From Coprinellus micaceus (Eukaryota; Basidiomycota; Agaricomycetes; Agaricales; Psathyrellaceae), in assembly GCA_951394405.1 (NCBI GenBank), contig OX596342.1, positions 868,001-932,000 on the forward strand: 64,000 nucleotides of DNA, written 5' to 3'. Shown piece by piece: positions 8,532 through 47,842 of this stretch. Every line of letters starts with the position of its first letter. Position 1 is the stretch's first letter. The translations under genes and the position numbers were made by a program. The notes beneath the pieces are model-generated. The model did no database searches and was not told the DNA's origin. It saw only the letters and a program-made list of their open reading frames with translations.

Positions 8532-8565
8532 CCGAGGCTTTAAGCCTCGGGTTCTTGTCCCGCGC
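8532..8565 (+). repeat. Left terminal inverted repeat of the 30-kb element
   Basis: The first 15 bases, CCGAGGCTTTAAGCC, are the exact reverse complement of 38384-38398. The following bases (TCTTG.CCC) also match with one gap. The first 19 bases are almost self-complementary (CCGAGGCTT/AAGCCTCGG) and could fold into a hairpin, as Helitron-type ends often do. Confidence 0.7.
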
Positions 8566-9924
8566 GAGTTCAAATGCGCCAAGGAAATCTTGAAGATTCG
8601 ACCCATGTGATCGTGCGTAATTCCTTCCTTTTTCTCCCTCATCATTAAGTTTCCCTGTTTCCGTGCGATTGTACAACACACTCTACCTTTCTACCATGAC
8701 TCCTCCATATCCCATCCCATACCTTCTTTTGTGACCTCTGTTCTCCCATCGTTATACCCGTCCTGTCCTTCCCTTCCCCCTACTGTCCTTCCCTTCCCCC
8801 TATCAAAGCTTCTCCTCTTCACTCCATTTGCTGACTCAAATCTGCCTGTCTCTCGACTCCACCCTATCGGTTTTAGGTTTGCTTTCTGGATCGTTTCCCA
8901 AAATCTTTCCTCCTCTGCCAATCATGTTCCTCCATCCCCACCGCCAGTTAGTCCTCCTCTCCTTCCTTATCTTGAGTTTCAACATTCTAATCCAATTTTT
9001 CTTGAAGCTCCGTCCCCTCTCAACCACCCTCCCAAGTCGCCGTTCGCTTCATGGATCTTCCGCCTGCCCCCTCGGGGTCCATCTATCCTCCCCTCGAACG
9101 CCTTTCCTCCCTCGGAACGCCATACATTTCGAGATGGGACCTCGTTTCCCTGAACCTGTGGTCGCTCGAATCGAGTTCGCTCGTCCGTTTCGACATGGTC
9201 GTCCCTTCTCTCACCCATCCTGCACCACCTATTCTACATTCCACGGCCTATGCATCGCGGTTCTCCTCTCCACCCTCTCCCCTTAATTAGGGCGCTTTGT
9301 TCGTCTTTTGCTCTTCGCACTGCTTTACTACATTAACACCTCTTCCCTTAGATTAAAAACACGCCCTCTCTCGTCTCTCATTGTCCCTTGTCCGTTTTGA
9401 GCTCCCGATGTACCCTTCACAGTTTAGTTTACGATGAATCTACTCATGTGACCGTCCCTTCTCTCACCACTTCGCTTCATTGCCGTTTCTTCTCGTCGGA
9501 CACATCCGTAGTTGAACCATCCTCACTGGCCTCAACGTCACAGGAGCTCGGCCATCCTTTCCCCCATTCTTCTAAAATCGTCTCTTATTAAATAACCTTG
9601 CATGGTGAGCTCACATTACTGCACCCTTTTACGCGCTCACCGAGATAGGATGGTGGCTTAGGTGTTACCCCCGCACCGTACATATACCCGAACCACGTCT
9701 ATCAACACCCTGAGTGGTCAAGCTCCGTCGTTCCGCGGTTCGCTCCCTCCTGTCCCGTCGTCACTTTTATTTTTGACCCTGGTTTCACGCGATTGGGATA
9801 CGTGGAGCCGCCGGTTGAAGGTGGATCCAGATCTCTACCCTACCCCAATTTTGCATTCGATCGCTGCCCATTTCAGTCTCCATCGACCACTGCAACACAC
9901 ACTCTCCTCTCTGTCCGGTTCACC
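8566..9924. other. Pyrimidine-rich region upstream of F-box gene 1
   Basis: Plus-strand CT-rich sequence with many ORF-like stretches of Ser/Pro/Leu. I read these as composition artefacts. No domain or splice structure is visible. The part near 9900 is the promoter/leader of the gene at 9925. Confidence 0.5.
8764..8803 (+). repeat. 20-bp tandem duplication
   Basis: The unit TGTCCTTCCCTTCCCCCTAC is present twice head to tail in a pyrimidine-rich region, with a change in the last base. Confidence 0.7.
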
Positions 9925-11160
9925 ATGTCTCCCATCCGCAACCTTCGTCCGTTCAAACCGGTTCCTTTCGACATCTTCGAACGCATTATGTTCTTTTCGC
10001 TCTACAGCGGCAACGAGTTCTCTGCCTACATGCAACACGACGACATTTCGGGCCACTTCGTCGACTTCCCCACACGCCAGGCCACGTTCATCAACATGTT
10101 CGCCACGGTCAATCGTGACGTGAACCGCGCGTGCGTATGCCTGTACTGGAAGGTCATCCTACTTCGCACTTCCGGCGAATTGTCCGCCGTCCTCGAGACG
10201 CTCACCACTCCCCCCTCCCCCAACGACGTCGACTACGGATCTTTATGCTGGCGGATGGAGTTGCGAATTCAAGGCGGTTACTCCGCCGGCCAGCTGGGCG
10301 CCCTTATATCTCGCACTCCTAACCTCAAAGTTTTCATCTTGCGAAACGTTTGGCCCTCCCACAACCCCCCGATGCGCATACGCCCAGTCGCAATTGTCGA
10401 TGCATTGTCCGCTCACTCAACCGGCCTCCTGCGTATTCAATTCGAATCCCAGAACGAGGAGCCAAATCTCTTCCAAACGAAGACGCTATTACGATCCCTC
10501 CCTCAGCTGGTGACTTTCCACTTGGACAGGTTGTGCGTCAAACCTTACCCAGACGATTCCTCTCCTTTGCCCAACCCTCATCCTAATCTCGAGGTGCTGT
10601 CTATCGGTAGCGCTGTACCTCAGTCTCCATGGGCGCACCCTTACCATCGCACGGGTCACATTCTCCGCTGCTTCCCAACCCGTGACCTCCTCCCGGCCCT
10701 CACGTCTTTATATATTTTCGAGCCTTCCATCAGCCTTCGACCTTTCCTTACGCTCTTCGCTCCTCAGATTGAGGAGCTCGGGTTCTCTCGCAATGCCTCG
10801 TGGGTCGCTCGGGGAGAGGGTTCGCATATCATGCACCTGTGTCCCTCGCTCAAACGAGTTGTTTGGGTGGCGCCTGAGGGACCTGACTGGCAGCCGTCGT
10901 ACCCCCTCCCCACTGACAACCCGTTGGAAGATGTTATCCTCGTATACATCAACCGCAGGCCCACAAGGTCTCCGACACCCGCCCGCGCTATCCTAGACGC
11001 CATGCTTTCACTTCAACTGTTTGCCCCGTCCTTGAAGAACGTGCATATTGTCGCACCGCCCGCCCACGCTGGGTTCGAGGAGTGGGCTTCCTTTCGGTAT
11101 CTTCGCCGCACCCTGGTCAGAGATGGCGTCAATGTCAACGGGCCCTCGTTTTCTGCCTAA
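9925..11160 (+). CDS. F-box-like protein 1 (cargo)
   Basis: An intronless frame of 411 codons starting at CACC-ATG (MSPIRNLRPF). Residues 10-30 (FKPVPFDIFERIMFFSLY) fit the start of an F-box, which in other proteins binds Skp1 and recruits substrates to an SCF ubiquitin ligase. The rest has leucine-rich-repeat-like spacing, including TPNLKVFILRN. The same order (F-box, an LYWKV/ALWQRV/ILWRNV/LLWRFV element, PNL.VF..N) occurs in the genes at 13330, 17664 and 35105. An upstream in-frame Met at 9793 is less likely because the added residues look like CT-rich leader. Substrate unknown. Confidence 0.7.
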   Translation: MSPIRNLRPFKPVPFDIFERIMFFSLYSGNEFSAYMQHDDISGHFVDFPTRQATFINMFATVNRDVNRACVCLYWKVILLRTSGELSAVLETLTTPPSPNDVDYGSLCWRMELRIQGGYSAGQLGALISRTPNLKVFILRNVWPSHNPPMRIRPVAIVDALSAHSTGLLRIQFESQNEEPNLFQTKTLLRSLPQLVTFHLDRLCVKPYPDDSSPLPNPHPNLEVLSIGSAVPQSPWAHPYHRTGHILRCFPTRDLLPALTSLYIFEPSISLRPFLTLFAPQIEELGFSRNASWVARGEGSHIMHLCPSLKRVVWVAPEGPDWQPSYPLPTDNPLEDVILVYINRRPTRSPTPARAILDAMLSLQLFAPSLKNVHIVAPPAHAGFEEWASFRYLRRTLVRDGVNVNGPSFSA

Positions 11161-12031
11161 CGATCATGGTAAGCTTCACTGCGCTATCAACCACCTCACT
11201 GCGTTACTCACTTTTGCCCCGTTCGCGTCAGGTCTCTACGTCGTATCTGAATATCCTTCATTAATACTTTCTTAATACTGCTCAGTCACTACCCTCGCTA
11301 TTATATTGCTATTTTCTCTCTCTCTCTGCTACGTTGCGATATTCTCTGCCTTCGCCTATCGCCGCGCTTGCTTTCAGTGGCTCTGTATGGTACGTTCTTC
11401 ACGATCCTTCTTCATCCCCGTCGCACCGACCGTTCTTGCCTGAGCGACATCGTTATATCCTTCGGTCTGCGGTATCCATTGCGAGGTCCATACTGTCGCA
11501 CACTTGTTAACGGGAATAAAAGCCCGGTCCGCCTTCCATTGTGAATTCCGTCGTCTTCGGATCGGTGCCCTGCGATGCAATGTTGATGTCAGCAATTCAA
11601 CTTGTCCTGTCGTGTAGCAGAGGTCTTCCTCACCCCTTTCCTCTCACCACCAACGTCCTCACACCTCATCCCCGGGCATCTTTAGCCCTGTCAGATCTCC
11701 TTCCATTGGCCATTCTTACGAGGGATCGCGGCCCTCCGTCTTGGGTTAGAGCCATCGGGGTACGTATGTGCGCCCGCTGCCGATTCCTCATCATCCGCCA
11801 TGCTCAAGACCTGGAGCTCTGTCTTCGCCTCACCCAACTCGTCGGCGCAAACTGCCAACGGGATTGACCTGGGTTTATCCACCTGGCGGATCGAGGCGTG
11901 AATTTCTAGTCCATACAACTCCCTCCGACCCTGCCTCCCCTCAGGGTCTTGTTGGCTTGCGACATGATGGTCTGCAAGCTCGTCCCTTGCTGGTCACGGA
12001 TACCTAACACACTTTCATTTCTTCTATGCTA
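11161..12031. other. Intergenic between convergent F-box genes
   Basis: Shared 3' flank of F-box genes 1 (+) and 2 (-). Short CT runs occur (TCTCTCTCTCT near 11315). No gene is supported. Confidence 0.5.
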
Positions 12032-13330
12032 TCACATTTGGAACTCGAACCTAAAATCCCCTGTCCCATGTTGTTCGAACTCGTCCTTAAACCATTTGAT
12101 GGTGTTAGGGGGCATCGGTGCGCCCACGACGACCACTTTGGTCTCCTCGAGACGCTCAAAGCGGCCGTGCCTGATGACCCTGATGCCTTCCTCCATGTCG
12201 TCCACCCGTGGAGCCCTCCACTCGTCGTAATCGTGGATGAACGTCAGGGTGATGTGGCGCAACGTTCCGTGGTGGGTTGGGAGAAGGGGGGCGCCGTCGA
12301 CAACGAACCCATGCGTCGACGTACAACGCAGGTCTTGCAAGTTCGGACAAAGGTCGAACACAGCGTGCCCATGGTCTGCCACACTCCACATAACGCCGGG
12401 TTCCCATCTCCTCGGCACAAGGAGAACCAACGTATGAAGTTGGAAGCCGTACACATTGAAGAAAGGGTGGAATTCGGGGACGTGTTGGTGGACGTGAACT
12501 TCTTTCAATCCTTGGAGGGCATGATCTGCGGTTAACGCGATCAGGATCTCCCCAAGCGCTTCTCTTGACTCCGACTCGTTGGTGTGAAGCGCCTCCTTGC
12601 CTAAACACAGTTTCTCGAGATCTGTGTTCTCCCGGAGCGCTGGTCTTTCTTCGCCATCCATACGCCGCACCATATCCAGGTGCAGAGATCTTAACCTCCT
12701 CGTGTTCAGCAGTGCCACCACACTCGAAACAGTGGGGTGGACGTTTCCGCTACATACCTCGACACGTACCAAGTGTGTGAAGATTTCGAGGGATGGGCCA
12801 GTGAGGGGTGCGGGAAGGGCGTGTTGGCTATGGAAGATATTGTGATTGATGAAGACCTTCAGGTTTGGCATGCTGGACACGAGATCGTTCACCATCCCCT
12901 CCTGACGGTCGTGTTCCGCAATCATTCGTAGATGCAAGGTGTGCGTTTTCGCTCCGAGTGGCGTGGGTTGTGGCACAAGTCCTCCTGACTGTGCGAGGTC
13001 CGCCACGGTTTCGAGGGTGTTCACGGACGAGATCGTAACTCTCTGCCAAAGGGCCGCGATCGCGAAAGAATGCAGGAAGCGACATGATGGGGCGATTATG
13101 TGTCCGACCAGGTGCCGCCTCTCCCGGTAGGTGCGGGCTCCCCTTCCGAAACCATGCCCTACCACAATCCCATCCTCCTGATCCCGTGTTCCTGCCGCCA
13201 TGGGCGGCGCCTCCGAGCAATCTATCGTGGTATCCCCTGCATCGTCGTCGTAGAGGACCGCATCGAATATCTTCTGAATCACTTCCGGGGCGAGCGTCTT
13301 CAATTTCGACAGGTTTGGGGCGGATGTCAT
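12032..13330 (-). CDS. F-box-like protein 2 (cargo)
   Basis: An intronless frame of 432 codons. The N-terminal LAPEVIQKIFDAVLY (about 13-27) is the F-box-like helix. ALWQRVTI and MPNLKVFINHNIF are shared with the other three F-box genes in this element. The C-terminal half is leucine-rich without a strict repeat. It faces F-box gene 1 tail to tail. A role as a substrate receptor of an SCF ligase is inferred from the family only. Confidence 0.7.
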   Translation of the reverse strand: MTSAPNLSKLKTLAPEVIQKIFDAVLYDDDAGDTTIDCSEAPPMAAGTRDQEDGIVVGHGFGRGARTYRERRHLVGHIIAPSCRFLHSFAIAALWQRVTISSVNTLETVADLAQSGGLVPQPTPLGAKTHTLHLRMIAEHDRQEGMVNDLVSSMPNLKVFINHNIFHSQHALPAPLTGPSLEIFTHLVRVEVCSGNVHPTVSSVVALLNTRRLRSLHLDMVRRMDGEERPALRENTDLEKLCLGKEALHTNESESREALGEILIALTADHALQGLKEVHVHQHVPEFHPFFNVYGFQLHTLVLLVPRRWEPGVMWSVADHGHAVFDLCPNLQDLRCTSTHGFVVDGAPLLPTHHGTLRHITLTFIHDYDEWRAPRVDDMEEGIRVIRHGRFERLEETKVVVVGAPMPPNTIKWFKDEFEQHGTGDFRFEFQM

Positions 13331-14153
13331 GACCGGGCACTGGTCACCAATGGCGTGGAGCGCCCGACTCCCTGTTTCTTATTGCCAATGTTTGCCCTCG
13401 CTTCTTAGTCAAGATCCCGGGTCTTACATGGGCAAGTGAGGGTTCAACGGGATGCATCCATTGCATTCACATGGTTTCATGCACTCGCGGGCAGCGGTGG
13501 CCGAGAATATGTACTTGCCTTGTCTGCGCGGCTAGTCTTTACTTAGACTATACAAATACACTCGTTTCTGTCGTTTCTGTCGGCCGAGTCCCGATTTTCC
13601 TCTCCCGATCGCCTACGATGGGGCCTTCGATGCTATCCTCGTCGGCGCATAAAATAATACCGGACCATATTGCCGTTTCATCCGTTCCGGTGGGTGCCTT
13701 GGATGCCTTGGGCGCTTGGTCCCATCAACGTCTATTGTTGAATGTTGACGTCGCTCGAAAAGGAAAGCGGTGCAGCAGTAACGTGGGTTCACGAGGCCTG
13801 GCTTCTTCTTATTCAACCGCCATCGACTTGCTACGCAGATTTCTACCCTCGTCCTCCCTCCGTTAACAGGTTCTCGAGCCGATATCCTCCTCCATGCACG
13901 CTGTCACTACCCACGTGAACGCGCCCTCTCTATTCAGTTGCTTTGCATTCTACCCACACGATCAACTCCACGTTGTCTTCCGCTATGGTATCATCGCAAA
14001 ATTTCCGGTTAAACTCGTCCCTGGCCGTCCCCCCTCCTACACCCTATAAGAAGCGACAGTTGCCCGGCTAAGCTCAGTTTCTCGCCCTACAAATTCCCGC
14101 CTTTACGCCTCGCGACAACTTGACCTCACCCTCCATCGTCCTCGAATCGTACT
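13331..14153. other. Divergent upstream region between F-box gene 2 and paralogue A
   Basis: Must hold the promoters of the genes starting at 13330 (-) and 14154 (+). A 131-codon plus-strand ORF at 13471 has no recognisable features, so I do not call it. Confidence 0.45.
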
Positions 14154-17100
14154 ATGCCGCCCAAACCCGCCGCTTCGAAAGCCAAATCCTCGTATGTTAT
14201 CATTACTGGAACATAACTTGGGGCTAACCTGAGATCGATAGTGCCCATACGCCGGGAGCCGCCTCCTCTACGCGCAGTCACCTAAAAGCTGGGGTCTCCT
14301 TCGCTGACGTCGCTCACGCCCACTCGTTCAAGAGAGCCCGTGCTCGTGCTGCTTCCAGGGTCGACAACGAGCACGATATGGGGCATGTTGGGTGCGACTT
14401 CCTTCCCATATTATCCTGTCACATCTGCCGACAGCCTCTTCCTATCCCTTTCAGAGACGTCGTCTTGGATATCCCCTCTGATTCTGACGACGACGCCAGG
14501 TAAGGAGTACCCTCGTTTCAAAGGGGCTGAGAGCTTACCGTCGCCCATTTAGCTTGACCTTGCCTTTCCGCTCCAACCCGACGAAGAAGACGACGAAGAG
14601 CTCCTCCAAATTCAATATTACTACGCCTCTCCACCCTGCGCCTGACATTTGGGAGTCTGCGGGTCACACTACGTTCGTACCGCGTTGCATAAGTGCTCGT
14701 CCTCCTTCTCATACCATCAGTAGACCCGGGGAGGACGCGCTCTTCGGCCGCACACGCATTCACGACGACTCTGCCGCAAAGAAAGCTATGTTTAGTGCGA
14801 GGTTCGTGTGTTCAATTTTACAGTGCGCGTGTTATGCTAACAAATCTCAGTGATTTCCCGGCGCTGCCCAGCCCTTCTACACCGAAAATTGATGCCTTTG
14901 GGGACTCTGAGTACGCACTGGTTTCACGATCTGTGCTTCGTTTCATCTAACATTTACTACCTTTAGGTTGCCTTCAATGATGGAAATCTTTGAAGAGGCC
15001 GGATTCAAGATGAAGACCAATGCCCTTCCAAGTGCGGGTGCCTCCTCAGGATCGACAAAGGGAGGAACGAGCGCTCAGAGCACCGACCCCTCGACTATAG
15101 ACCCGATCACCAGGTGAGTTGATGCATCCACGGGTCCATGGTCGGTTTGGATTTGACGCTGGACTGTTGAAATCTTCCAGGGACGATCCTATGGTTAAGA
15201 AGTGAGCCTTCGCCCGTCGCTTTTTACCGTTGACTCATTATAAGCAGGAAAGGAGATACAGACGCCCGGGACGACCCCCTGGCTGCTCTAATCGGCGGCC
15301 TCGACCCTGACCTTGACGCATTGTTCCTCAAGGCTGGGAAGCATCGCGATTTTCTGCTGAAAACTCTCCACCACCTCGTTGCCGAAGATGCGGCGAAACC
15401 GGGCGACACAGTCGATTCTGATCGTCGCCTCAGGTACGTAGGTTGACATTTGTCCCTCTGTTACGCTAATCAATTGGTCGAGAAGCCGGGAGAAGGATGG
15501 GACGGGTGAGGGGCTATCTACACGCCCCGCTAAGAGGGTTCGGCCTTCTGGTGAGTCACCGTCCGTTGCATACGCTCTTGCTTTTACTGACACGATCAAA
15601 TGCACAAGAAGTTCACGCCCCGCCCGATGCTCTGCCGCCCAGCAATGCATTGCCGGCGGTTTCGGGGGATATGCAGGGAGACTCTGAAAGGTTCGTGATA
15701 GTCCAGCGACAGTTTTGCACGGAAACTAACTCGTCTTCCAGCGGCCTATCGGATTACGAGCGCCGGGAACGCAAGCGCCTTCGGTGAGTCGATCTTGGGT
15801 TCCACCACCTAGTCATCGCTAACTTGTTGGTAGGACCTCTCGCCCTGAACCCAGGGGTCCTTCAGAGGGTCCCGCATCCACGAAGGCCATAACCGACGAG
15901 AAGAAGTCTACCAAACCCGCGGCTCCCAAAACGCCCACTCGTCGACGTGCCAAGAAGGGGGTCATGGAGATGATGGCGGCTGTCGGCGCCGAGCCCGTCA
16001 CTCCTCCGCCTCCGTCGTCGTCCCCGACCACGACAACTACTAGTACGGGTGCGATCATCGAAAGTCGTCTCTTGCCTCCCCCACGCGTGAACGAGTTGCA
16101 CTTGGATATGACTGACCCTATCGCTCGAACCACTGTCAGGGACGACCTATATCGCCTGGCGTGAGTCCTTGTCCCTCCTAACCCGCCCCTTCTTTGTATT
16201 GATGTCACTTCCAGCGCTGCCATCGGTGTGAAGTCTTGGAATCCGAGCCTCCAAGGGCCTGGACATGTTAAGTTCTGCGTCTGGGGCCAACATTGTCCGC
16301 ACATGGATGGAGAGTACGTTACGAAATCGTTGAAGTGATATGACGCTGACGATCCGGTAGACTTGCTCTCGACTTCCTTGTTTTTGAACATAAGGATAAT
16401 TTCGGCAATCTCTCTCGCATGGATATATCCAATGTGTATACCATGCGTTTCAGCCAGTCTGCTACTCGTCATCACGCCGTCACCAAGGATGGCAGGCCTT
16501 TCATCTTCCTCACGACAGGTTTCCTTGAATCTTCTCAAATTACAGAGCCTAGCCCCGTCGGTCTGAAGCAGAAGTCCCTCAAACTAATCCCACACGAAGG
16601 CGAACACCAACGCATGTCATGTGCTGCATGCACTGTGTTCGGTTTCGATTCAATGAAGACCCAGTATGCAAAGCACGCTCTCCAATTTTCTACACGTGCC
16701 GAGTACACGGGGTCCACAAATCGTAGGTCATATCAACTTTCCCCTAGACGGCGTACTTACTCTTTCTCCCAGCTACGACTTCTTCCCCTTCTGGCAAAGG
16801 TGTACCGGCTGGCATGTTCACAGGCGCCTCCAATTCCTCTTCAAACCGGGTCTCTATGGATGCCTTTTCTCTCCCTCACAACGCTGAAGGTACGTGCCCC
16901 TGGTCATTTTCTCGGCGTTTCAACGCTGACGTCCAACAGTGCCCGTGTATGACGCCAGAGACTCCGATGTGTTTGACGTTAACCATGACTTGCCCGAGCT
17001 TGACTCCAAGCTTCCTCGCTGGGAAAGGGAGATTCCGCTCGGTTCCTTCGTGGTGGTCGGCTACACGATGACCGCGTTTTTCTCTAATTCTCGGGAGTGG

Positions 17101-17163
17101 ACCTTGGGCCTCAACATCCAGTGGGCCATCATTGTTGGAACTCCGGAAAGCGCGTCCGTTTGA
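14154..17163 (+). CDS. Uncharacterised multi-exon cargo protein, paralogue A
   Basis: The start MPPKPAASKAKS is at 14154. The first exons are 14154-14191, 14242-14499 (perhaps with a further small intron) and from 14553. The last exon is 16940-17163, and about a dozen exons lie in all. The N-terminal half is basic, Ser/Pro-rich and low complexity (KTPTRRRAKKG). The C-terminal half is a conserved globular core with GPGHVKFCVWG, HAVTKDGRPFIFLTTGF, PHEGEHQRM, QYAKHALQFSTRAEY and GSFVVVGYTMTAFF, ending TLGLNIQWAIIVG. The same core, in the same exon arrangement, is in paralogue B (21021-24593). I believe such proteins are abundant and unnamed in Agaricomycetes, but I cannot assign a fold. A DNA- or protein-binding role in the element is speculation. 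Internal exon borders are approximate. Confidence 0.65.
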
Positions 17164-17663
17164 ACAGACTGTTTCACGTTTCTTAACACGTAGTTCGCGT
17201 AGATCCTCGATCCTTCCGTGTTTTCAGAACCCCTACACCGTTTCCCAATAATTGTTGTCACCTCACATTCATGTTTCGTAAGCTCGGACTCAACTCGGTA
17301 CGCGTCCATCCCTTCATTGTTCGCGTCCTCTAAGCTTCGCCTCACTCTTCATAGTCACCTACCACAGTAGGCGGCTTGCCCCACCCTTACGGGACCTAAA
17401 ATCGGCTTGTGGCGTGTCCTCAATAATGGTCGGTACCCCTCCCTGCGCCCCACCCTGCGGAGAATCGCGTTGAACGAGCTCGTTCAGCAACACTCCTTTT
17501 TGCCGTCGGCTCGGCGGGATGGCCATTTCGTGCAGTTCGTACCAGGAACATACGGCTCTTGGTCTTGGACTGATCTCTCAAGCGAGTTTTGCTCCCAACA
17601 AATACCAGTCGTGTTTTCAAGCCGTCCACCCCTTTGCAGCTGTAACAGGTTTATAGCTAGCCC
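17164..17663. other. Intergenic between paralogue A and F-box gene 3
   Basis: No gene is visible. It holds the 3' flank of paralogue A and the upstream region of the F-box gene. Confidence 0.5.
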
Positions 17664-18998: not shown

Positions 18999-19148
18999 CA
19001 CTGTAACTCTGCCTCAATTTGTACTGGTAATGGGCGATGCATTTCGAAGGGACTCAGGCTGTATGAGGAATGCCTAGCTACCTATTCTCGTTACTCTACC
19101 CGCCTCAGGGACGATGACGACATCACCAGGGGCAGAAATGCAAGGGCC

Positions 19149-20216: not shown

Positions 20217-21020
20217 GTGCGAATCCAGGCATTTCACTGAATACAATTCAGATATGAATTGAGGCCGGATCCGTGCCAGAAACGAGCGACATACCTGCTT
20301 CGTCTATGCTAAAGTTAGGCCACATAGTGATAGAAGGCAACGAAGGGAGATATCGACCTGCTTGTTTCTGGCAGAAGGTCTAAGGATAAGAGCGGGGCCG
20401 TACCCATTGCACGATCGAAGGGGTGAGACACGGTGTGTCGGAGCCCTCGTCCCTGATACCGCCCTATTCAGAATTATAAAGACTGCTCCTCCCATAAGGG
20501 AAAAGGGTAGGTCAATCCCTGGGTGCGGGACAGAGTGACCCTTAGTACGAGCACTAGCAGGGGACGAAGTTGGGTTAGTGTGCTGGGCGCCTTTTGCCAT
20601 CAACCGGCGCGCACGAACCAGCTTCCACATCGGGAAATGCTGTTACGGTGGGTTCGGGGTTGACTGACACTCTCACTAGCAAATACCTTACCATTTACCT
20701 CTCTGTCCTAACTGCCTTTCGTGCGCGACTGAATCCTGGGCTGGAACGGTATCCCGCCGTCAACCGCCTAAACGGACTATCACCATACATTTCCGTCCCG
20801 GTTACCGATCGCTGGTCCATGCGGTGGTATGTTGCCGTCCCCCGTCACCCCCTTTTCTCTCCATTCGACGACTGAATTGGACGAAAATTTCCGCTAGAAC
20901 TTGGAGCCGTGGCCCTTGGCCTACAAATGGCTTCGAACCGTTGGTCGACGAGAGGTTTAGGATCCCAACTCTGTCCTACATTGTCCTACACCCGCCTCTG
21001 GACTTTCGCTGGTATCCAAC
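20217..21020. other. Divergent upstream region between gene D and paralogue B
   Basis: No convincing gene. It contains the promoters of the minus-strand gene at 20216 and the plus-strand gene at 21021. Confidence 0.45.
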
Positions 21021-26063: not shown

Positions 26064-26277
26064 ATCGTGATAGTAAACGGTGAAATGTCAACAATGGTGC
26101 ATGTATTACGAACCTATGCCTGTTATTATAAGTTGCGTCCTATACGATTGTCTTTGGAGAGCGTGACGGTTGGTGGGGGCATGAGCGTGCTATTGGATCC
26201 GGTGCCATCAGCCTGCCGCGGTCGACAAGTTTTCCAACCTTGTTAGCCGACTGTCATCTTCCTGTGGACCTCCCAGA

Positions 26278-29200: not shown

Positions 29201-32200
29201 CCAACCAGACGCTGAGGGGAATTCATACCATTTTCGAAGACAAATCGGACCGTGTGATGGACGATGCGTACGTGAACCCCACTTTGTCTTTACCAGAAGC
29301 ACCTCCCGCAAAGTTCTGTTCGAAGGTAACCCACTGTGTTTGTAACGACTGTCAGGACTTGGAGGCCTGGTACGACCGATTCAAATCTAGCGTCGACGAC
29401 ATCATGCTGAGGTCGAACGTCCACAAATGCTTTGGTAAGAAGGACTCGAACACTGATGTCGCCTCATCTGCACCGACTGCGTCCGTTCCGCAGAGGCACG
29501 CCACTGGTAAAGGTTGCATCAACAAGGATGGGATATGTACCGCAAGATTTCCTCGAGACATTTTTTTGAAAACCTTCGTAGACCTTCAAACAGGGCAGGT
29601 CTTCATGAAGAAGCTGGATTCTAGTATCAATACCGTAACTCCCATTATATCCCGGTGCTTCATGTGCAACACTGACACCACTTCATTGATGTCAGGTACG
29701 GCTGTGAAGGCCGTGATTGGGTATGTCACCGACTATGTCACGAAGGGATGGCTCAAGACCCACCAAATTTTCTCTTCCATGTACGACGTTTTCTCGCGGG
29801 ATGCGGATGTGGGGGACGTGGACCTCAAACCCATCCAGGCGGCCCGAAAGATGGTGTTGCGAGTGGTGAACTCTCTCAGTGCGAAGATGGAAATCGGGGC
29901 CCCCATGGCGGCACTCTATTTACTGCAAAATCCCGACCACTACACGAGCCACGACTTCGTTCTATTTTATTGGAAGAATTTCGTCAATCGGGTCCGAGCT
30001 GATTGGCAAGAGACGCTGGATGCCGTCAAAGATTTTGAGCTTCTCCCCTGTGAGGACGGAGAGCCCGACGATATGGGGCTCACTCGTACCGATAACGGTC
30101 ATACCCTGGAGCTGTTGGAAGACATGGATTCAAAGGATGAGCCGTTGTTGATCCAGCGATCCGCAGGCAACTTTGTTGGAAAGTCCAGCACCGACGATTA
30201 CATCTATCGTCCTCAGGAACTCCAAGATGTATGCTTGTATGAATGGATCCAGTGTGCAGTGCGCGTCAACATGCGCACAACACGTCCTCCATCCAAGGAG
30301 CTTTCGTTTTTTGGATATATGCCTGAACATCCCCTCTCCCGCAGCCATGTCGTCGCGTGCGACCCCACTCGGCGCAGTTACATAGTGCCTAATTTCGTAG
30401 GTCACGCATTGCCGAGAAAGGACGTCGGGGATCGCGAGGAGTATTGTTGCACGATGCTCACTTTATTCTCGCCCTGGAGATCGGGTCTCGACCTAAAATC
30501 CTCTGAAGCGACCTGGGAACAAGCGTTCGACAATTTCGCTTTCACTGAGCGTCAGACAGATTTGATGGCTAACTTCAACTTGAAGTACGAGTGCTATGAT
30601 GCAAGAGACGACTTCTCTGCAACCTTTAAAGCCGGATCCAATGCAACAGGGGACGAGGATCGCATTGAAAGCCGGAATGACGAGGACGAGGACGATGCAA
30701 TCTGGAATGACGGCAGTCAAGAGCTCGTTCCCAACGACGACGGTATGGAAGAGATGGATGGCCTGAATTCACCTGGGAAGGATTGTATGGATGATCGAGA
30801 GAAGTATGCATCTGCCCTTGCGGCTATGAAGCGTGCAGGATGGACTGCGTGGAGCCAATCAAAAAAATTCGTCGTGAAACTTCCTCACCTGGTCATCGAT
30901 CGATCGTTAGGCGCTGCTGCTTGGCGCCATGTTATCAAGGCCCAGAAGAAAGAATTTAAGGATGTGAGAGCAAAGGCGTTAGACGACATGCTTACCTTCG
31001 ACGATGACGGGGGTAGTGGCAAGGTTAAGAACGACGCTTACGTTGTACCTGGAGCATTCCTGTCCAAAAACTTCGTACCGGCGGACGAGAAGTGGTCTGA
31101 GGTCATGGAAGCCATCGTCAAGTCGGAAAATTTGAATACGGAGCAGGAGAAAGCGTTCCGAATCATCGCAAACCACGCGACTTGCGTCGCTCCTGATCAA
31201 CTTTTGATGCACCTTGGGGGTATGGGTGGCACGGGAAAGTCTACGGTGATCAAAGCCTTGGTCAAGTTCTTCCATAAACGGAAGGAGAGTTACCGATTTG
31301 CTCTGCTGGGGCCAACAGGCACTTCAGCGGCGCTCATCGGTGGTTCAACCTATCATTCATTCTTGGGTCTGAGAACAGGACAGTCTAGTATGGGGGGGGA
31401 ATCACTATCTGCCATCGATGACCTAAAACAACGGGTTTTGGGAGTGTCGTACGTCTTCATTGACGAAATGTCAATGCTCTCGTGCCGTGATCTCTGCCGT
31501 ATAAGCGCCAAATGCTGCGAAGCCCGAGAAATGTACGAGAAACCCTTTGGGGGTATTAATGTTATCTTGGCGGGTGATTTCGCCCAACTCCCACCCGCCC
31601 ATGGAACAAAGCTATACGACAAGGCGGTGTCCCTCCGTCAGTCTCCAAAGCAAACACCTGGGGAACAAGAAAATACCATTGGGAAGACTATATGGCTGCA
31701 GTTCACAACGGTAGTCATACTGAAACAAAATATGCGCCAGGTTGGGAACTCCAAGGAGGAGAAGGCATTCCAGAAAGCGTTGGCCAATCTCTGCTACTTC
31801 GCGTGCACAAATGACGATGTTGAGCTCTTGAGATCCAGAGTTGCGGGCAACAACCCCAGCCTGAGTTTGGAAGACCCGCGCTTCCGTGACGTGTCGGTAA
31901 TCACCGCGAGGAATCGCACCAAAGATCAGATCAACGAAAGCAACTTGGAGAGGTTTGCGCGCGAGTCAGGAGAGAAGTTATTCGAGTTCGTCAGTACGGA
32001 CTCATTGACTACCTCGGCCCCAAAGCGTACATCCCAAGAAACGCAAAGGAAAAGGGTGTTCCTGAACATCAAGGAAATTACCAGGCAAATCCAGGGTACA
32101 TTGTGGGGTCAGCGGCCTCACACGAGCGACCAGATACCGGCTACCCTTCGCCTTTGTTTAGGTATGCCTGTGTTGATTAGAAACAATGAGGTAACCGAGC

Positions 32201-33777
32201 TCTGCATGACGAGGGGTCAGGAGGCACGGGTTGTCGCCTGGACCGCTTCAGCGGTACAACATTGGGAAGGAAAGCGGAGCCTCGACGTCTTGTATTTGGA
32301 GCTTGTGAACGCTCCTCGCAACGTGAAGTTGCCACACCTGCCGCCAAATGTCGTCCCTTTGACTAAAATATCCCAGGTGCTGGATGCGAGACTTCCCAAC
32401 GACAAATATGTCCACATCTCCAGATCGCAGGTGCCCATCCTCCCTAACTTTGCAATGACTGACTACAGCTCTCAAGGAAAGACCAGGACGTACAATGTCG
32501 TTGATATTTCTGAGTGCAGGAACTTCCAGGCGATCTACACATGCCTTTCGAGGGGAAAGTCTTTGGAGGGCACACTGATCTTGAGGGATTTCACGCTCAA
32601 GGAAGTATCGGGAACGCTAAATGGAGCCTTAAGGCAAGAATTTAGAGAACTAAACTACTTGGATACAATAACAGACTTAAGGTACAAAGGTGTGCTACCC
32701 CCCCTGATTATGCAGTCGACGAGATGGGAAACTATCGATCGTTATAGAAATTGGAAGAGGACACACGAAGAGCAGGACTGGCACCCGGCTCTGCAAGACG
32801 TCCGCCCTGAAGATTCAGTTCCACTACCGAAAGTCTTGGCGGAGGTTGAGACACTTGTGAGCCTGAACAAAAGAAAGCGCAAGGGTGACGCGCCGAAGGC
32901 TGATCCCAAGCCTAAAAGGAGGCGACCAAACACGCGCCCACCTTCCTTCTTGTCCCCTGCAGGACCGTTGTGGGACAGCGCGGATTGGAGCTGTGCGTAC
33001 GACTCGTTGACCTTCGTCATACACACCCTGTGGAAGAGCGAGGTCCAAAAGTGGTCACCGGTTCTGAAAGGGCACGGGGACGTCATGAGAACTTTGATCG
33101 ACGGTTTAGAGAACATTGATCCATCAGCGAGTCTGGTAGATGAGTTAACTAGAATACGCAACATTTGGAGGGGGGAGGTTCGGACCAGACGTCCCGGCGA
33201 GTACCCTCGAGGGCAGAGAGGCACTGAGTTCTTTGAACTCACCCGCGATCTCGTAAACAGCCCGATTAGGTGTCCAGGTCATGACTCAGTATGTCGTCGA
33301 TGCCTCTCGCGGGCGGGCCGTCGGCTGTTGGGAATGCGTCCTGTGGGGAGATTCACAGCTTTGACGGACGAGATGTCAGTGCAAGACCTAGTCGACCAGC
33401 GAATGGTTGGACTGACCGAATGCCGCGGGTGCGGTGACATCAGAGATGACGCTTACGACCGTACGGACACACTTTGGATCGAGGTGGCTGCAGGTCCACA
33501 GGATGTGCTTTTCAACAGTCACATAGACGTTCCAGGGTGGGGTACTTACAGGCTGGCCGGCGTGGTATACTATGGTAGTTTTCATTTCGTAGCGAGGGCT
33601 ATCTTGGACAACGGAAAAGTCTACTTCCATGACGGTGCCGTGCACGGTTACAGTACACATGAGGGGACCCAGGGTGTCACCTTCGCCCAGACAGATTTCA
33701 ATAGGTGTGGGGAGAAGAAGGCGTCGCTTGTGATGTACGCGAAGGTCTCGACGATTAGGGAACTTGAGTCAGACTGA
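26278..33777 (+). CDS. Helitron-type Rep/Pif1 helicase with putative cysteine-peptidase tail
   Basis: One intronless frame of 2,499 codons. Two SAP-like/zinc modules (about 120-165 and 248-290, NELKDLC...HTCTPC and VEGLQAV...HRCTTC) precede a Cys-rich finger (about 372-440) and a DUF6570-like region (about 455-590). The HUH nuclease motif HLHILIW is near 915, and the tyrosine motif YVTDYVTKG near 1147. The Pif1-type helicase has Walker A GGMGGTGKST (about 1646), FIDEMSM (1726), AGDFAQLPP (1764) and YTCLSRGKS (2088). The last 270 residues contain WSCAYDSL (about 2237), FHFVARA (2434) and YFHDGAV (2450), a possible Cys-His-Asp triad. Such proteins nick and unwind DNA for rolling-circle transposition. 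All key motifs are present, so it could be active. The first about 90 residues look atypical, and a later start (Met at 26560) is possible. Confidence 0.9.
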   Translation: MLGPQNLSVIHTAYSIPSAGIAASIGSSTTSRGVAFESTFGDRGNPLVQLFGGRHSAAHGGGGGARNRVFLVTELEGSLNEAGEPAQFAHVQYTMRAYCPKRMLENPLREGEVACLLRYSQVMDKCDANELKDLCILHKIPIPRHPIRDNLLLALNSHTCTPCVAGGCDDSYAVLTPVVVFSNGTMTVQSDKFASSVRKFTLGELNGLIHDDVLSKYKEGFHVEAVYSNKDLAVDGDDRPLLQIPLDLLMRHLTVEGLQAVACHHGVALPRRGKFKKAELTSLFEHHRCTTCPPLWFLLNPIKVKSPRKKGEAKAGRPSWLEQLDREDSPPFVWDAYLNVDTEAWPPRPTTMRDVARAMQGFCDDLTPKAVEEEGCKVCGQLTRRVELVRESAVSYDFDPLKEDGVSTKERASPDEPQVYVADTPVVAPSLTHICEACDDALKKAKRPKMALANALWLGDVPDVLKGLTLAEQALIARVRHNRCVVRVSTGHAKMIANVISFEHPSMKIYNRLPIPKEELDDVLAVVFTGVVKPNEDQLKRTPVLVRRNEVKRALEWLKLNHKNYADLEIDHSALESYPLEGVPVGVWHKPAGEEEGNVLATAKSVFDNEDELGTSEGPCPFTVHGLTTEKFSTMSSTERKLAAVQHLKNGGAFLAVGHAADPQTIWDNPDLYPQMFPWLFPYGFGGVGQETHKGNISKEAHLKWLLLYHDKRFQRDANFLIIAFNHQLIKQNSKGTFMMCKRNNFAKVATSIRSVHPGVLASISQRMRSGARVVPDTPEEKRAFSILDQVEVVGAHVNGSLASKKHQRNEIWSLLNFTGAPNWFVTLSPADNKHPLCIYWASEDLEFKPEIKTASERLHLVTRNPVACARFFDYVVRLFIEHILGWKDDGPVHGIFGKLSAYYGCVEQQGRMTLHLHILIWIANALSPQIIRDRLMSGDGEFQRCLVAYIEGCQIGEFMTGTKEEVSARVPYVPNQTLRGIHTIFEDKSDRVMDDAYVNPTLSLPEAPPAKFCSKVTHCVCNDCQDLEAWYDRFKSSVDDIMLRSNVHKCFGKKDSNTDVASSAPTASVPQRHATGKGCINKDGICTARFPRDIFLKTFVDLQTGQVFMKKLDSSINTVTPIISRCFMCNTDTTSLMSGTAVKAVIGYVTDYVTKGWLKTHQIFSSMYDVFSRDADVGDVDLKPIQAARKMVLRVVNSLSAKMEIGAPMAALYLLQNPDHYTSHDFVLFYWKNFVNRVRADWQETLDAVKDFELLPCEDGEPDDMGLTRTDNGHTLELLEDMDSKDEPLLIQRSAGNFVGKSSTDDYIYRPQELQDVCLYEWIQCAVRVNMRTTRPPSKELSFFGYMPEHPLSRSHVVACDPTRRSYIVPNFVGHALPRKDVGDREEYCCTMLTLFSPWRSGLDLKSSEATWEQAFDNFAFTERQTDLMANFNLKYECYDARDDFSATFKAGSNATGDEDRIESRNDEDEDDAIWNDGSQELVPNDDGMEEMDGLNSPGKDCMDDREKYASALAAMKRAGWTAWSQSKKFVVKLPHLVIDRSLGAAAWRHVIKAQKKEFKDVRAKALDDMLTFDDDGGSGKVKNDAYVVPGAFLSKNFVPADEKWSEVMEAIVKSENLNTEQEKAFRIIANHATCVAPDQLLMHLGGMGGTGKSTVIKALVKFFHKRKESYRFALLGPTGTSAALIGGSTYHSFLGLRTGQSSMGGESLSAIDDLKQRVLGVSYVFIDEMSMLSCRDLCRISAKCCEAREMYEKPFGGINVILAGDFAQLPPAHGTKLYDKAVSLRQSPKQTPGEQENTIGKTIWLQFTTVVILKQNMRQVGNSKEEKAFQKALANLCYFACTNDDVELLRSRVAGNNPSLSLEDPRFRDVSVITARNRTKDQINESNLERFARESGEKLFEFVSTDSLTTSAPKRTSQETQRKRVFLNIKEITRQIQGTLWGQRPHTSDQIPATLRLCLGMPVLIRNNEVTELCMTRGQEARVVAWTASAVQHWEGKRSLDVLYLELVNAPRNVKLPHLPPNVVPLTKISQVLDARLPNDKYVHISRSQVPILPNFAMTDYSSQGKTRTYNVVDISECRNFQAIYTCLSRGKSLEGTLILRDFTLKEVSGTLNGALRQEFRELNYLDTITDLRYKGVLPPLIMQSTRWETIDRYRNWKRTHEEQDWHPALQDVRPEDSVPLPKVLAEVETLVSLNKRKRKGDAPKADPKPKRRRPNTRPPSFLSPAGPLWDSADWSCAYDSLTFVIHTLWKSEVQKWSPVLKGHGDVMRTLIDGLENIDPSASLVDELTRIRNIWRGEVRTRRPGEYPRGQRGTEFFELTRDLVNSPIRCPGHDSVCRRCLSRAGRRLLGMRPVGRFTALTDEMSVQDLVDQRMVGLTECRGCGDIRDDAYDRTDTLWIEVAAGPQDVLFNSHIDVPGWGTYRLAGVVYYGSFHFVARAILDNGKVYFHDGAVHGYSTHEGTQGVTFAQTDFNRCGEKKASLVMYAKVSTIRELESD

Positions 33778-33830
33778 TTGAAGTATTAGCACCCTGACAG
33801 GTTCTGAAATCGTTGGGACTTACTACGAGC

Positions 33831-35105
33831 TCAGACCCCGGCATCGATGTGTAACTGCAACCCAGTGTTACTTCGGCTGAGACGGCGTCTCCGCGCCCGG
33901 AACCATGTTTGGCTCTCCAGTGATCCCCCGTCGCCTCCTCCAGGCTGGAGCTTCACGGTCTTCAGGTTGGGGAAGTAACCATTCTCGAGGATGTCAATGA
34001 AATGTTGCAGCCGTCCTTGGCCTTCACTTGTTGTTGACCAGGTGTCCGGATAAACGATGGTTATGACCTTAAGGCGATTGTGAGCTCCAGGAAGGGTGTG
34101 TATCGGTGAGTCGCCGCCCCGTTCCGTGGCCACCCAAATCAGCACTCGCAGATTTGGACACATAGACAGGAAGTTCTCGTGATCACTGGAGTTTGTTGGA
34201 AGGCTAGGGGTTGAATAAAGCAGAAGTTGCAAGCGGGTTCCATGTTGGCGGAGGAATTCGCCCACGGAGGGCGCGTATTGCAGGAGGTGGACGCGTGTAA
34301 GCTTGCCTAATGAGGTTGGGGGCATGGCCGTCAAGTGGTCGATAAGAGATTGGACGCCCTGAGCGGCGAATTCATCTCGGCCTTCCGCCGACGTCAAGCC
34401 CAATGATAACACTGAAAGCTTGTGGTTACGGAACGTCCACGATCCGGCTACCGGGAGGACGGGCACGTTGGGCTGCAGAATACTGTCGCAACGTAAGGTC
34501 TTGAGGTTCGTATGCTGCGCCAATATGTTGTGAATGTCGGTCAATGTAGGTTGGGGTGATTGGAATTGAAGTCGCCTGAGTTTGGACAGGTGGGACACCG
34601 TACCAGCCAAGTCCGTTAGCTTCATGGTCGAGTGGGGTTGACGCTCGTCGGTAACATTGTTGACAATGAGAACGCGTATGTTGGGCATGGCCAAGAAGGT
34701 GTCGGCGAGAAGTAAGGGGTCGAACTCGCCGTGGATGCGAAGCTGTAGGCGTTGGGTCTTGGGTCCAATGATGTTTGCGCCGAAAAACGGTCCACCCTGG
34801 ATTGCCTGCCTTCGGATGCTACAGAGACAATACATCGACCTGACAATCACGAACCGCCAGAGAAGAGGTAGGCCTATGCGGTTGATTCTACGATTAATTG
34901 CAAGGCAATCCATCGCGAACCATCGGTGTCGTCGCGCAAAGGGCGTTCCGCGCTTGGTGATGTCTTCGTATTCTAGGTGGGTGACCCGAAATTCCGGCCC
35001 CTCGTAAAGAGTGAAAAAGAGTATTCGCTCGAGCAATTCGTCGGGGAGACCGAGGAGATGACAGGGATTGGTGTTCATGGTGGGTAACGTCGAGGTATTG
35101 ACCAT
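33831..35105 (-). CDS. F-box-like protein 4 (cargo)
   Basis: An intronless frame of 424 codons. A second Met at 35078 (MNTNPCHLLGLPDELL) may be the true start. LLGLPDELLERILFFTLY (about 17-34) is the clearest F-box helix of the four copies. It is followed by LLWRFVIVRSM, MPNIRVLIVNN and a leucine-rich remainder. It is transcribed toward the helicase gene, the two 3' ends being 53 bp apart. The sequence is closest in layout to F-box gene 1 (both have FFxLYxGxEF). Confidence 0.75.
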   Translation of the reverse strand: MVNTSTLPTMNTNPCHLLGLPDELLERILFFTLYEGPEFRVTHLEYEDITKRGTPFARRHRWFAMDCLAINRRINRIGLPLLWRFVIVRSMYCLCSIRRQAIQGGPFFGANIIGPKTQRLQLRIHGEFDPLLLADTFLAMPNIRVLIVNNVTDERQPHSTMKLTDLAGTVSHLSKLRRLQFQSPQPTLTDIHNILAQHTNLKTLRCDSILQPNVPVLPVAGSWTFRNHKLSVLSLGLTSAEGRDEFAAQGVQSLIDHLTAMPPTSLGKLTRVHLLQYAPSVGEFLRQHGTRLQLLLYSTPSLPTNSSDHENFLSMCPNLRVLIWVATERGGDSPIHTLPGAHNRLKVITIVYPDTWSTTSEGQGRLQHFIDILENGYFPNLKTVKLQPGGGDGGSLESQTWFRARRRRLSRSNTGLQLHIDAGV

Positions 35106-35489
35106 AAAGTTAACATTATTACATCGGGGTGTGAGACATGACGCCTTCGCTGTGGAGCCACGGTGGGGCTCGAGCGGTCATCGGTGCACGAGCGCAGAGC
35201 GATCCAGGGGAGGGGCTAACCGACGATGGGCAGACGTTTGGGGAGGTGGGAACCATTGTGCGGCGAAGCGATCAACAGGCCATCACCTTCGCACGGCCGA
35301 TCCCTCTCTCACCTGGACTCCTCTCGGTTATGCTCTTATTCGACAGCATCGACTTGCAACAGCGAGTCCAATGACGATGTTTGTTCTTGACTTCGTGCCG
35401 AGGTAAGGTGCCGAAACAGAAAACGCTCGGTGACGGAGTGTCTATAACGAAGACTCTGGTCCCAGGTGGTTTCTTAAACTTCAACCGCC
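35106..35489. other. Divergent promoter region between F-box gene 4 and gene C2
   Basis: No gene is supported in these 384 bp; both neighbours start here on opposite strands. Confidence 0.5.
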
Positions 35490-36669
35490 ATGCCCATCCC
35501 ACAGAACCGAATGGCAACGCCAGACACTGCGAATCAACGTGAGGCGGAGGAATTTGGTGCGTATATGCCGTTGGGTTTATGTTCATGTACTCACCTCCCT
35601 GTCACAAGAGCGATATTGGCGAATTCTGCCCCATGATGTTCACCTGGAGGTGATCTGCTTCGTAACGTTGCGGGAGCTGAACATCATCAGGAGGGCAGAG
35701 CTCTACGAGGACTCGGCTCATTGCGAACTCCGAACCAGGGTTAACGGTCTCTTCAAGCATTGGGGTTTGGATGAAAAGACAACGACCGAGATGATGGATG
35801 AGACGCACAGCGTGTTGTCTGGGTCCGGTGCACTGCACGTCTGTGCGCCAGGCAGGTGGGTCCCACAGGACTTGGATTTCTACTGCCCGGCAGGCGCTGT
35901 AGACCAGGTCGTTGGGCATTTCGAAGCGCAGGGTTATGACATTGGGGAACACGGCAACGCGCAGGTTAACGCGGTGACCTCTCATGAGGGTGGGTCCGAC
36001 GGACACGACGCCCCGAACACCGGGGCTGATTATTACAACACGGCGATAGTTGAGAAGGTCGTCCTCCTGGTGAAGCCCGACTCGTCACGAAAACTGAATG
36101 TCGTCCACTCCAGGATGCCATGTGCTGAAGCTCCCATCTTCGCTTTTCACTCTACGGTGGTCATGAATGCGGTAACTGCGAGAGGAGTTGTGTGCTTCTT
36201 TCCAGAGTGGACGTTAGAGGGGAAAGGTGCGTGCTGTTGTGTCCTGGGGGATCCTAGAAGGTCAGAGGCTAACACGCGCATTTCAGGTTTCGTTAACTAC
36301 AGGGCAGGGTATTCGCGTTGGTTAGAACAAGAAGAAAGTGAGATGCGGGTGGTTGGGAAGTATGTGAGGCGTGGTTACAAGATTGGGAAGGACTGTAGGA
36401 AGGGCCATCGTGCGGGTTTTATGGACTGCCGAATGTGTGGTCAGGAGTTGAACGGATGGGGTCCCGGAATCGTGACCATGGGGTTCGAGAAGGGCGAGAC
36501 TGTGACTCCATCTGGTCGCCGATTCTTTTGGCGGTTGGGTGGAATGCCCAGTTCGGTGGGAGGAGGCTCAATGTCGGAGCGAGGGACAACGGTGGTGGTT
36601 GAAGGTGACAACGATGCGGAGGTAATTGTTTATGAGGGGGGACAGCTGCTGGAGGGGTTCCGTGGTTAA
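35490..36669 (+). CDS. Cargo protein with DLDFYCP and FHST-VMN motifs, copy C2
   Basis: Three exons (35490-35556, 35609-36226, 36287-36669) give 355 codons, starting MPIPQNRMATP. The second intron is 60 nt and keeps the frame open, so it is easily missed. The core is VPQDLDFYCPAGAVDQV, KLNVVHSRM and FHSTVVMNAVTARGVV. After the intron comes YVRRGYKIGKDCRKGH, then DCRMCGQEL, a Cys/His cluster that may bind zinc. The order matches copy C1 (24849-26063) up to the shared intron; beyond it the tails differ. Uncharacterised family. Identity to a nucleotidyltransferase-like group is only a guess. Confidence 0.65.
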
Positions 36670-36918
36670 CTATGGCTTCGGTTCTTTTTGTGCAGCGTTT
36701 GTCCGTGTCGCATTTGATTATCCATCGTCATGTACCTCAGGCGGGCTCGGATTAACTGCAGCTAATGTATGTATGGCCTGCATGGTTTACCTGAGAACCG
36801 TAGAGTCAGCGGTATGTCGTCCTTGCGGCGTGCGTCATAGGTGGCTCTGGGCCGGGGTGTTTTATGGAGTCGTTGCTCGTGGTGAGACACTCGCATTCGC
36901 CTCCTGCTTCTGACACGC

Positions 36919-37389
36919 ATGGTCGATGCTAACCCTTACGACAGGCGCACGTCCTCCGAACGCGGGCAAAATGCGCAGGAACCTCTGCAAGCTCCTGTTC
37001 AGGATGTAGCTACTACGTCCCTTGTTCAAGCGTCCACCGGGGGAGAGGAACAAGATGGGGATGATGGTGGCCAGGAGCCCACCAGTGCTCAACCACACGA
37101 GTCCTGGCCTTTGTTACCGTGAGTATTCTTCTCGGCAGTTTGGATTCAGGCCGTTGACTCTCGCCGCCATTATCTGTCGATATGGATTTTATTGACATGT
37201 CTTGCTAGGGGGACCCACAGCAGGCGTGGGCAGGCAGTGTCCACCCCCGTATCTTCGCATGCTTGGCCAGGCTTACCGGACGACGACATCGATGCGCCCA
37301 CCGGATCCATCGGAAGGTTCGGCGTCATACGCTCGTACCGCGATGTTGCGGCAACGGTAGGTCTATGCGACCTACGTGGCCATTGTTGA
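36919..37389 (+). CDS. Possible small two-exon hypothetical protein
   Basis: Exons 36919-37118 and 37209-37389 join in phase to 126 codons, starting MVDANPYDRRTS. The product is polar and probably disordered (EEQDGDDGGQEP), with a short C-terminal ordered part (GRFGVIRSYRDVAATVG). The donor GTGAGT and acceptor GCTAG are good, but the 90-nt intron is longer than its neighbours. No family recognised; it may be a remnant. Confidence 0.3.
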
Positions 37390-38364
37390 TACTGAAGTGC
37401 AGTGTCAGGGTCTTGTGTCATTCACGCCCTGGGGACGGAACAGCCCTGAGGTCCCGCTGAGCTTTATTTTGGGCTTGATGCAGTTTGATACGGCCAGTAC
37501 CATGGGAGATTCGGCCAGGAGGGGGTGTGAGGGCGTTAGTCACTTGTCTTCCTAGATGTACTGCTCTCTTAGGAGGTGTAGGCGGACGGGGAACGACGGA
37601 GTTAATCATGAATGCCCATATTTTGGTCTCGCGGTTGCCGGTTGAATTGGATGTAATGGGTATGAATATCATAGTTCAGGCCTATAGGCAGACGAAGTAC
37701 GAGAAATGACCAGAAAGATACGAGAGGCTAGCGAGGGATGTTCTCAGCCGTTCGCACCGGGCCAAGACACACGCCTGTGTGCGGATATGCCACGGAGATC
37801 TAGAAGGTGTAACAGTTGGTAGGGCGCGTTGTGGGATAGGAGACGGGTACTCACAAGGACACGGGCGACCGATGAGGTAAGGTCGAAGCACACGCTCGCT
37901 TCATGAGTTTTTCTTTCCGACTGTGCGTTTATATCATGTGTTAAAGGGAGGGGATTGCTGTACGGAAGGGGATAGCGTACCTGTGCAGGATGTATGCCTT
38001 CCTAGTCTGGATTACCACTGCGTAACGGTACATCCGCGCGAGGATGTGGGACAACGGGTAGGGAGTCCCATGCCCGTTGTCGCGGAGTTCGTCGAGGTAT
38101 CGCCGTATGTCACGGCCAACAGAGGCAACCTGATCGATTACAGCAACGAAATCGCTTGGAAATCCGACGTGCGCGTATATGTCGTCCATTCCATGCAGCA
38201 CTAAACAGTCGGCGCAAGACCTTTGGGAGGGGCAAATTTGGCAGGTTGTCGTGGAGTGGACTTACATAACGTGTCCTAACGGGGTTATGAAACGAAGTTG
38301 ATGGGCGCTTACATGGGGGATCAAAGGCAAATCAAAGGTTGAACAAGATCATAAGACTGGTCCC
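37390..38364. other. Right end of the 30-kb element, mostly without clear genes
   Basis: A minus-strand ORF of 86 codons (38201-37941) has natural-looking composition (DDIYAHVGFPSDFVAVIDQ) and may be an exon of a decayed gene. Nothing else is supported. Rolling-circle replication ends are often gene-poor like this. Confidence 0.35.
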
Positions 38365-38398
38365 CCAGGGCCAAGAGCTCAGGGGCTTAAAGCCTCGG
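38365..38398 (-). repeat. Right terminal inverted repeat of the 30-kb element
   Basis: 38384-38398 (GGCTTAAAGCCTCGG) is the exact reverse complement of 8532-8546. It contains the 11-bp palindrome GGCTTAAAGCC close to the end, which could form a small subterminal hairpin. Further inward GGGCCAAGAGC still resembles the left end. Confidence 0.7.
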
Positions 38399-47837: not shown

Positions 47838-47842
47838 ATAGG

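Follow-up and report, generated by a model that had tools for sequence, protein, structure and literature searches.

A 64,000-nt stretch of the Coprinellus micaceus genome (hereafter the window; GenBank assembly GCA_951394405.1, contig OX596342.1, C9:868001-932000) contains a 29,900-bp element, E1, with the sequence features of a complete Helitron2-type transposon inserted within an open reading frame (ORF) of a Gypsy retrotransposon (Table 1). Beside the gene for a Rep/helicase (hereafter Rep), E1 carries four members of a gene family designated F, two copies each of X and Z, a single Y, and one possible further gene. The nearest named protein relatives of the element genes are from Coprinellus aureogranulatus, Ephemerocybe angulata, and Panaeolus cyanescens. 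The original prediction described a 30-kb Helitron-like block nested in a Gypsy ORF and carrying multi-exon genes of families seen twice or four times; the block, its nesting, and an open Rep/helicase frame are all present, and X and Z occur twice and F four times.

The ends of E1 were placed by comparison with a second copy of the element and with an unfilled copy of the Gypsy, and a shift of one T to the left at both ends is equally possible. A search of the genome (50.3 Mb in 17 contigs) with the Gypsy flanks identified two places, namely the present site and C9:2648766. The latter corresponds to the present site without the element, its flanks agreeing with those of the present site at 99.3-99.5%. 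Its junction reads ...CAATGCAGT|TGGCCAG..., and a 314-aa stop-to-stop frame remains open across it in the same phase, so that the two halves of the split Gypsy ORF, which might have proved unrelated, form one frame. The unfilled copy sets the element at 8531-38430, or one T to the left, and limits any target duplication to one T. The limits first proposed (8532-38398) placed the 3' end at the subterminal inverted repeat and so excluded a tail of 31 nt, and the ORF, counted from the originally given start at 38587, is divided into 157 nt (38587-38431) and 533 nt including the stop codon (8530-7998) rather than into 63 and 177 codons. As judged from this one empty site, the insertion (GCAGT|TGGCC) occurred beside a T and without target duplication. 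The identical Gypsy long terminal repeats (LTRs), flanked by ATAGG, indicate that the Gypsy insertion, probably a recent one, preceded that of the Helitron.

Judged from their sequence, the ends are of the Helitron2 type and not those of a canonical Helitron, as the 5' repeat is terminal, with a hairpin that is strong (-9.3 kcal/mol, z -5.7; none of 200 shuffles equally good), and the 3' repeat is set back by 31 bp from the 3' end. In Helitron2 elements, the inverted repeats are located 0-2 bp from the 5' end and approximately 20-30 bp or, more broadly, 20-40 bp inside the 3' end, and the group also shares with E1 the RepHel protein, the asymmetry of the repeats, the 5' hairpin, and insertion at T without target duplication (PMC3627910; PMC5148889). 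The hairpin of the 3' tail is weak (fold z -1.1 on one strand and -1.2 on the other). Assignment to Helitron1 (canonical; 3' CTRR, A/T insertion) is ruled out by the 3' end CAAG(T) and the site T|T. Helentrons resemble E1 in their Helitron2-like termini and TT site (PMC4067079; PMC5148889) but have an endonuclease domain fused to RepHel, whereas a Pfam profile search of the 2530-aa Rep detected no such domain at E ≤ 0.1, and this assignment was also rejected.

The 5' end sequence TTCCGAGGCTTTAAGCC occurs exactly at eight places in the genome and with at most one mismatch at 17 places, some of which are 3' repeats (control pattern, one place), and the terminal 28 nt on the 3' side were recovered at eight places, in every case without a mismatch under a limit of three (control, none). 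Pairing of the two ends yields seven complete elements of 27.5-34.4 kb, including the present one on C9 (29,900 bp), with the others located on C1 (29,985 bp), C3 (34,409 bp), C5 (29,985 bp), C6 (27,537 and 29,900 bp), and C7 (27,810 bp); those on C5 and C7 are known by their end coordinates alone. The end sequences, which could have turned out to be single or unlinked, thus recur linked at about 30 kb, and their pairing at six further places, the C6 copy included, is a pattern beyond chance. The C6 copy of the same length (E2) has different flanks and differs from E1 by 11 substitutions and no indels (99.96% identity). No differences separate the C1 and C5 copies in 1517 bp at the 5' end or in 1529 bp at the 3' end, with a single shared flanking base; beyond these stretches they differ. 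A T is found at both junctions in all seven elements, a count to be read with the T contained in both search patterns. Places of the 17-nt pattern at C8:1073228 and C10:1818927 were left unassigned to elements. Solitary ends were observed at C8:160627 (3' only) and at C11:2324359 and C8:317520 (5' only, the last with one mismatch); these loci have X, F, or Z matches nearby and no Rep in the hit list, and may represent truncated or non-autonomous relatives.

Rep has the RepHel architecture of an HUH Rep with catalytic tyrosine and a PIF1-type helicase (Pfam PF14214 and PF05970), and its frame is open over 2510-2555 aa in all seven complete elements. Conservation was assessed in 124 aligned sequences, comprising four elements and 120 listed homologues out of 236, and each count refers to the sequences with a residue at that position. 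The histidines of the HUH motif show no variation (122/122 each), and the two tyrosines (124/124 and 123/123) and the Walker-A lysine (123/123) are likewise invariant. Searches of the PDB matched the helicase part to PIF1 helicases and, more weakly, to Helraiser. Toward the C-terminus (residues 2267-2490, window positions ~32980-33650), a conserved Cys (116/117), His (108/109), and Asp (107/110) form a pattern that by eye resembles papain-type proteases and suggests a protease-like domain; Pfam gave no name to this region.

The X, Y, F, and Z families occur mostly in the neighborhood of Rep. Six-frame searches of the genome, with matches merged into loci, placed 20 of 22 X, 16 of 20 Y, 44 of 52 F, and 31 of 35 Z loci within 35 kb of a Rep place, surroundings that constitute 3.9% of the genome. 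Some of the outlying loci have a solitary element end no more than 7 kb away (X, 1/2; F, 3/8; Z, 1/4; Y, 0/4). Both X and Y accompany 16 of the 28 Rep places, and in all 16 X is upstream on the Rep strand, Y is upstream on the opposite strand, and an X is located between Y and Rep; a further X lies on the far side of Y in E1 and its C6 copy. This count used 41 of 48 X matches, as seven short exon rows of already listed loci were dropped. Ten of the remaining 12 Reps have neither gene, while X is found 8.3 kb upstream at C9:2886965 and 32.7 kb upstream at C10:1226549; Reps without the X/Y pair may belong to other Helitron families of ordinary build. A Y match and an X match at C6:2521002-2526482, separated by approximately 5 kb, have no Rep hit closer than 35 kb and may mark a distant or decayed element.

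In a correlation test, the distances among X and among Y sequences follow those of Rep. After removal of two duplicates (E1's copy on C6 and the copy on C5 of the C1 element), 14 of the 16 Rep/X/Y clusters entered the test, with E1 represented by X1 rather than X2 and Rep by a 260-aa stretch; more distant X/Y loci without both partners were excluded (C9:2886965, C10:1226549/1190735/1193850, C6:2521002/2526078, C3:848753, and C5:2617016). Ratios of nonsynonymous to synonymous substitution rates (dN/dS) indicate purifying selection on Rep, X, and Y in comparisons of E1 with E3, E5, and E6, which are three of the six other complete elements (E2 is near-identical, and those on C5 and C7 were not included). 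Gene content outside the Y-X-Rep core differs among the elements. Because the loci are mostly beside Rep, the side and strand of X and Y are constant, and their distances follow those of Rep, the four families are likely better read as the backbone of the element itself than as cargo. The original prediction had proposed intact cargo that may explain the spread of Agaricomycete gene families; its many open genes are borne out, but the cargo reading is unsupported as worded for families that occur mostly beside Rep, two of them on a fixed side and strand. A very large Helitron2 family with its own backbone is real and appears recently active.

The X1 gene was assembled at splice sites and likely has a further upstream exon. 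Introns of X and Y are short (47-54 nt where placed) with GT...AG sites, although one Y donor was picked by conservation over a higher-scoring site. The homologue P0001, an annotated Coprinellus X protein, is 63% identical to X1 over 70% of the query; its N-terminal stretch (residues 1-230) had no match in the window or the loci searched and possibly stems from a fused gene model. The structure model and fold matches of P0001 indicate an OB-fold of the T7 gp2.5 type, and proteins of large DNA viruses are among the matches (when the VIA list lacks a family, this is no evidence of its absence). X is therefore likely a gp2.5-like single-stranded DNA-binding protein (SSB), as predicted from the modeled fold. 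A PDB sequence search with the X profile returned no hit at E ≤ 10. A TET-carrying Helitron2 is described in Agaricus bisporus (PMC12730594); a TET/JBP dioxygenase identity was rejected for X, which had no corresponding Pfam match.

None of X, Y, F, and Z matched a Pfam family above the cut-off. The structure model of Y has a mean pLDDT of 41 and was kept out of the fold searches. Y was also considered as a second, diverged SSB related to X and rejected, since the profile comparison was not significant and 34 of 100 column shuffles were equally good. The F family is leucine-rich and F-box-like by eye only; an F-box identity was rejected after a Pfam search with 10 members found no F-box. One of the 10 matched LRR_4 (E 0.048) and one matched an EF-hand family (E 0.0012; 19.1 bits against a cut-off of 27), a single NCBIfam hit (E 0.19) was far below the cut-off, and a PDB profile search gave one hit at E 0.23. 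Outside the elements, the window contains a direct repeat at 1198-1890 (250 nt, 85% identity, spacing 443).

Table 1. Features of E1 and its Gypsy host, in window coordinates.
Feature	Position	Strand	Basis
Complete Helitron2-type element (by its ends), 29,900 bp (TCCGAGG...CACAAGT), flanked by T and T	8531..38430	+	empty site; same-length C6 copy
5' asymmetric terminal inverted repeat TCCGAGGCTTTAAGCC	8531..8546	+	with preceding T, 8 exact genome places
5' hairpin, palindrome CCGAGGCTT-T-AAGCCTCGG	8532..8550	+	DNA fold
F2, F family, frame of 503 aa (stop to stop)	9649..11157	+	open frame
F4, F family, frame of 448 aa	12035..13378	-	open frame
X1, multi-exon (15833-16160, 16215-16313, 16361-16722, 16773-16889, 16940 to ~17154)	15833..17154	+	splice-site joins
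F1, F family, frame of 445 aa	17661..18995	+	open frame
Y, multi-exon, antisense to Rep; main conserved exon ~19556-19924	19176..20325	-	splice sites, conservation
Candidate conserved gene between Y and X2	21517..22804	+	short tblastx matches in E3, E5, E6
X2, second, more diverged X copy, on Rep side of Y	23650..24575	+	sequence match
Rep/helicase, 2530 aa: DUF6570, Helitron_like_N (HUH/Tyr), PIF1 helicase, conserved C-terminal Cys/His/Asp	26185..33774	+	Pfam, alignment
F3, F family, frame of 448 aa	33834..35177	-	open frame
3' asymmetric terminal inverted repeat (the 5' repeat in reverse complement)	38384..38399	-	direct reading
3' tail	38400..38430	+	last 28 nt (38403-38430) identical at all 8 places found
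Host Gypsy LTR, 205 bp	7451..7655	-	partner 47633-47837, identical base for base
Target duplication ATAGG, 5 bp	7446-7450 and 47838-47842		both sides of Gypsy
Gypsy, larger part (gag-like and pol frames; outer part of split ORF to 38431)	38431..47632	-	Pfam, frames as they stand
Gypsy, smaller part (inner part of split ORF, 8530-7998)	7656..8530	-	flank search, frame check

We assign a probability of roughly 77% to the reading that 8531-38430 is a Helitron2-type element inserted precisely between two Ts of a Gypsy, that it belongs to a 27-34-kb family with a conserved backbone, and that it likely moves as a rolling circle by its own HUH/helicase, helped by its own predicted SSB. In such a cycle, Rep would nick the 5' end of the element and the helicase would peel one strand away, X would, if its fold model holds, coat the exposed 30-kb strand, copying would end on reaching the 3' repeat with its tail, and the resulting strand or circle would be joined into a T. 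The conservation of Y and the expansion of the F and Z families suggest roles in maintaining the element or in dealing with the host. The function of X, predicted from a fold model, is among the weakest links of this reading. X may instead be another OB-fold protein, which would leave the backbone in place in an element without its own ssDNA-binding protein; given the gp2.5-type matches, we consider this unlikely.

That the gene set consists of many intact host genes, taken up by an otherwise ordinary Helitron through read-through past its 3' end, is improbable. Capture is a known habit of Helitrons (PMC6431247; PMC4289320), and the variable gene content outside the core would fit it, but X and Y are multi-exon genes that keep their side and strand in 16 of 16 cases and whose distances follow those of Rep, and the families are found mostly by such Reps. 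We regard as very unlikely that the locus is an integrated virus-like or plasmid-like replicon with a Helitron-type Rep rather than a transposon; the multi-gene content, the predicted viral-type SSB fold, and the large-DNA-virus proteins among the fold matches point toward it, whereas the ends and the precise insertion are those of Helitron2, and no capsid, polymerase, or integrase match was found among the element proteins scanned (modeled genes only). A segmental duplication or assembly artefact, as the 99.96% identity of two copies might suggest, is scarcely credible, since the copies stop at the same ends within different flanks and an empty site exists.

The Helitron2-type family described here differs from the FoHeli elements of Fusarium, which are approximately 5-11 kb long, include only one member (FoHeli3) with a further ORF beside the transposase, and yielded no RPA-like gene (PMC5148889), whereas the present elements of 27-34 kb share a backbone in which several gene families are conserved. 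HELPO1 Helitrons of Pleurotus ostreatus likewise have an agaric host and extra genes without annotated function, and these genes are confined to Helitrons (PMC4289320). The HELPO families are 1.5-13.7 kb long, their cap genes occur only inside Helitrons, and capB adjoins RepHel in other basidiomycetes too, which provides a precedent for a linked accessory gene across species (PMC4289320). Fungal Helitrons are reported to reach 14 kb, and those of maize 39 kb with gene fragments, and the acquisition of full-length host genes is described as exceptionally rare (PMC6431247). Plant Helitrons with an RPA gene (Mothra) likewise encode an ssDNA-binding protein, but theirs is an RPA homologue, whereas X has a predicted gp2.5/CP312R-like fold; at least three independent gains of SSBs by Helitrons are recognized (PMC4683698), and X, if its fold is correctly modeled, would be another. 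Searches of open-licence papers by title or abstract, with no repeat database included, found no report of giant or multi-gene fungal Helitrons or of such an SSB in Helitrons. Starships and Polintons are also large, multi-gene mobile elements of eukaryotes. The mover of Starships is a tyrosine recombinase, encoded by the captain gene. Polintons are moved by an integrase and a DNA polymerase (PMC6431247). Neither a captain nor a Polinton/Maverick protein-primed DNA polymerase or integrase was found among the element proteins scanned, which comprise the modeled genes only.

A broader proposal, to which we give about even odds, is that these elements belong to a deep lineage in mushroom-forming fungi whose members are giant, self-contained replicons of the rolling-circle type. 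Their stable multi-gene core, consisting of the Rep/helicase with its putative C-terminal protease-like domain, a predicted virus-type SSB, Y, and the expanding F and Z families, would have been passed down as a single unit while the lineage diverged widely, making it the rolling-circle counterpart of Polintons and Starships, and the SSB gene possibly came from a large DNA virus or a phage-like source. Helitrons are commonly viewed as carriers of RepHel that pick up gene fragments, and a 27-34-kb family with a backbone that co-evolves with its transposase would change that view. If true, Helitrons would have a non-RPA ssDNA-binding partner, the recent copies would make it possible to test, in a fungal host, how very long DNA moves by a rolling circle, and, for annotators, some families of agaric ‘hypothetical proteins’ would be transposon genes.

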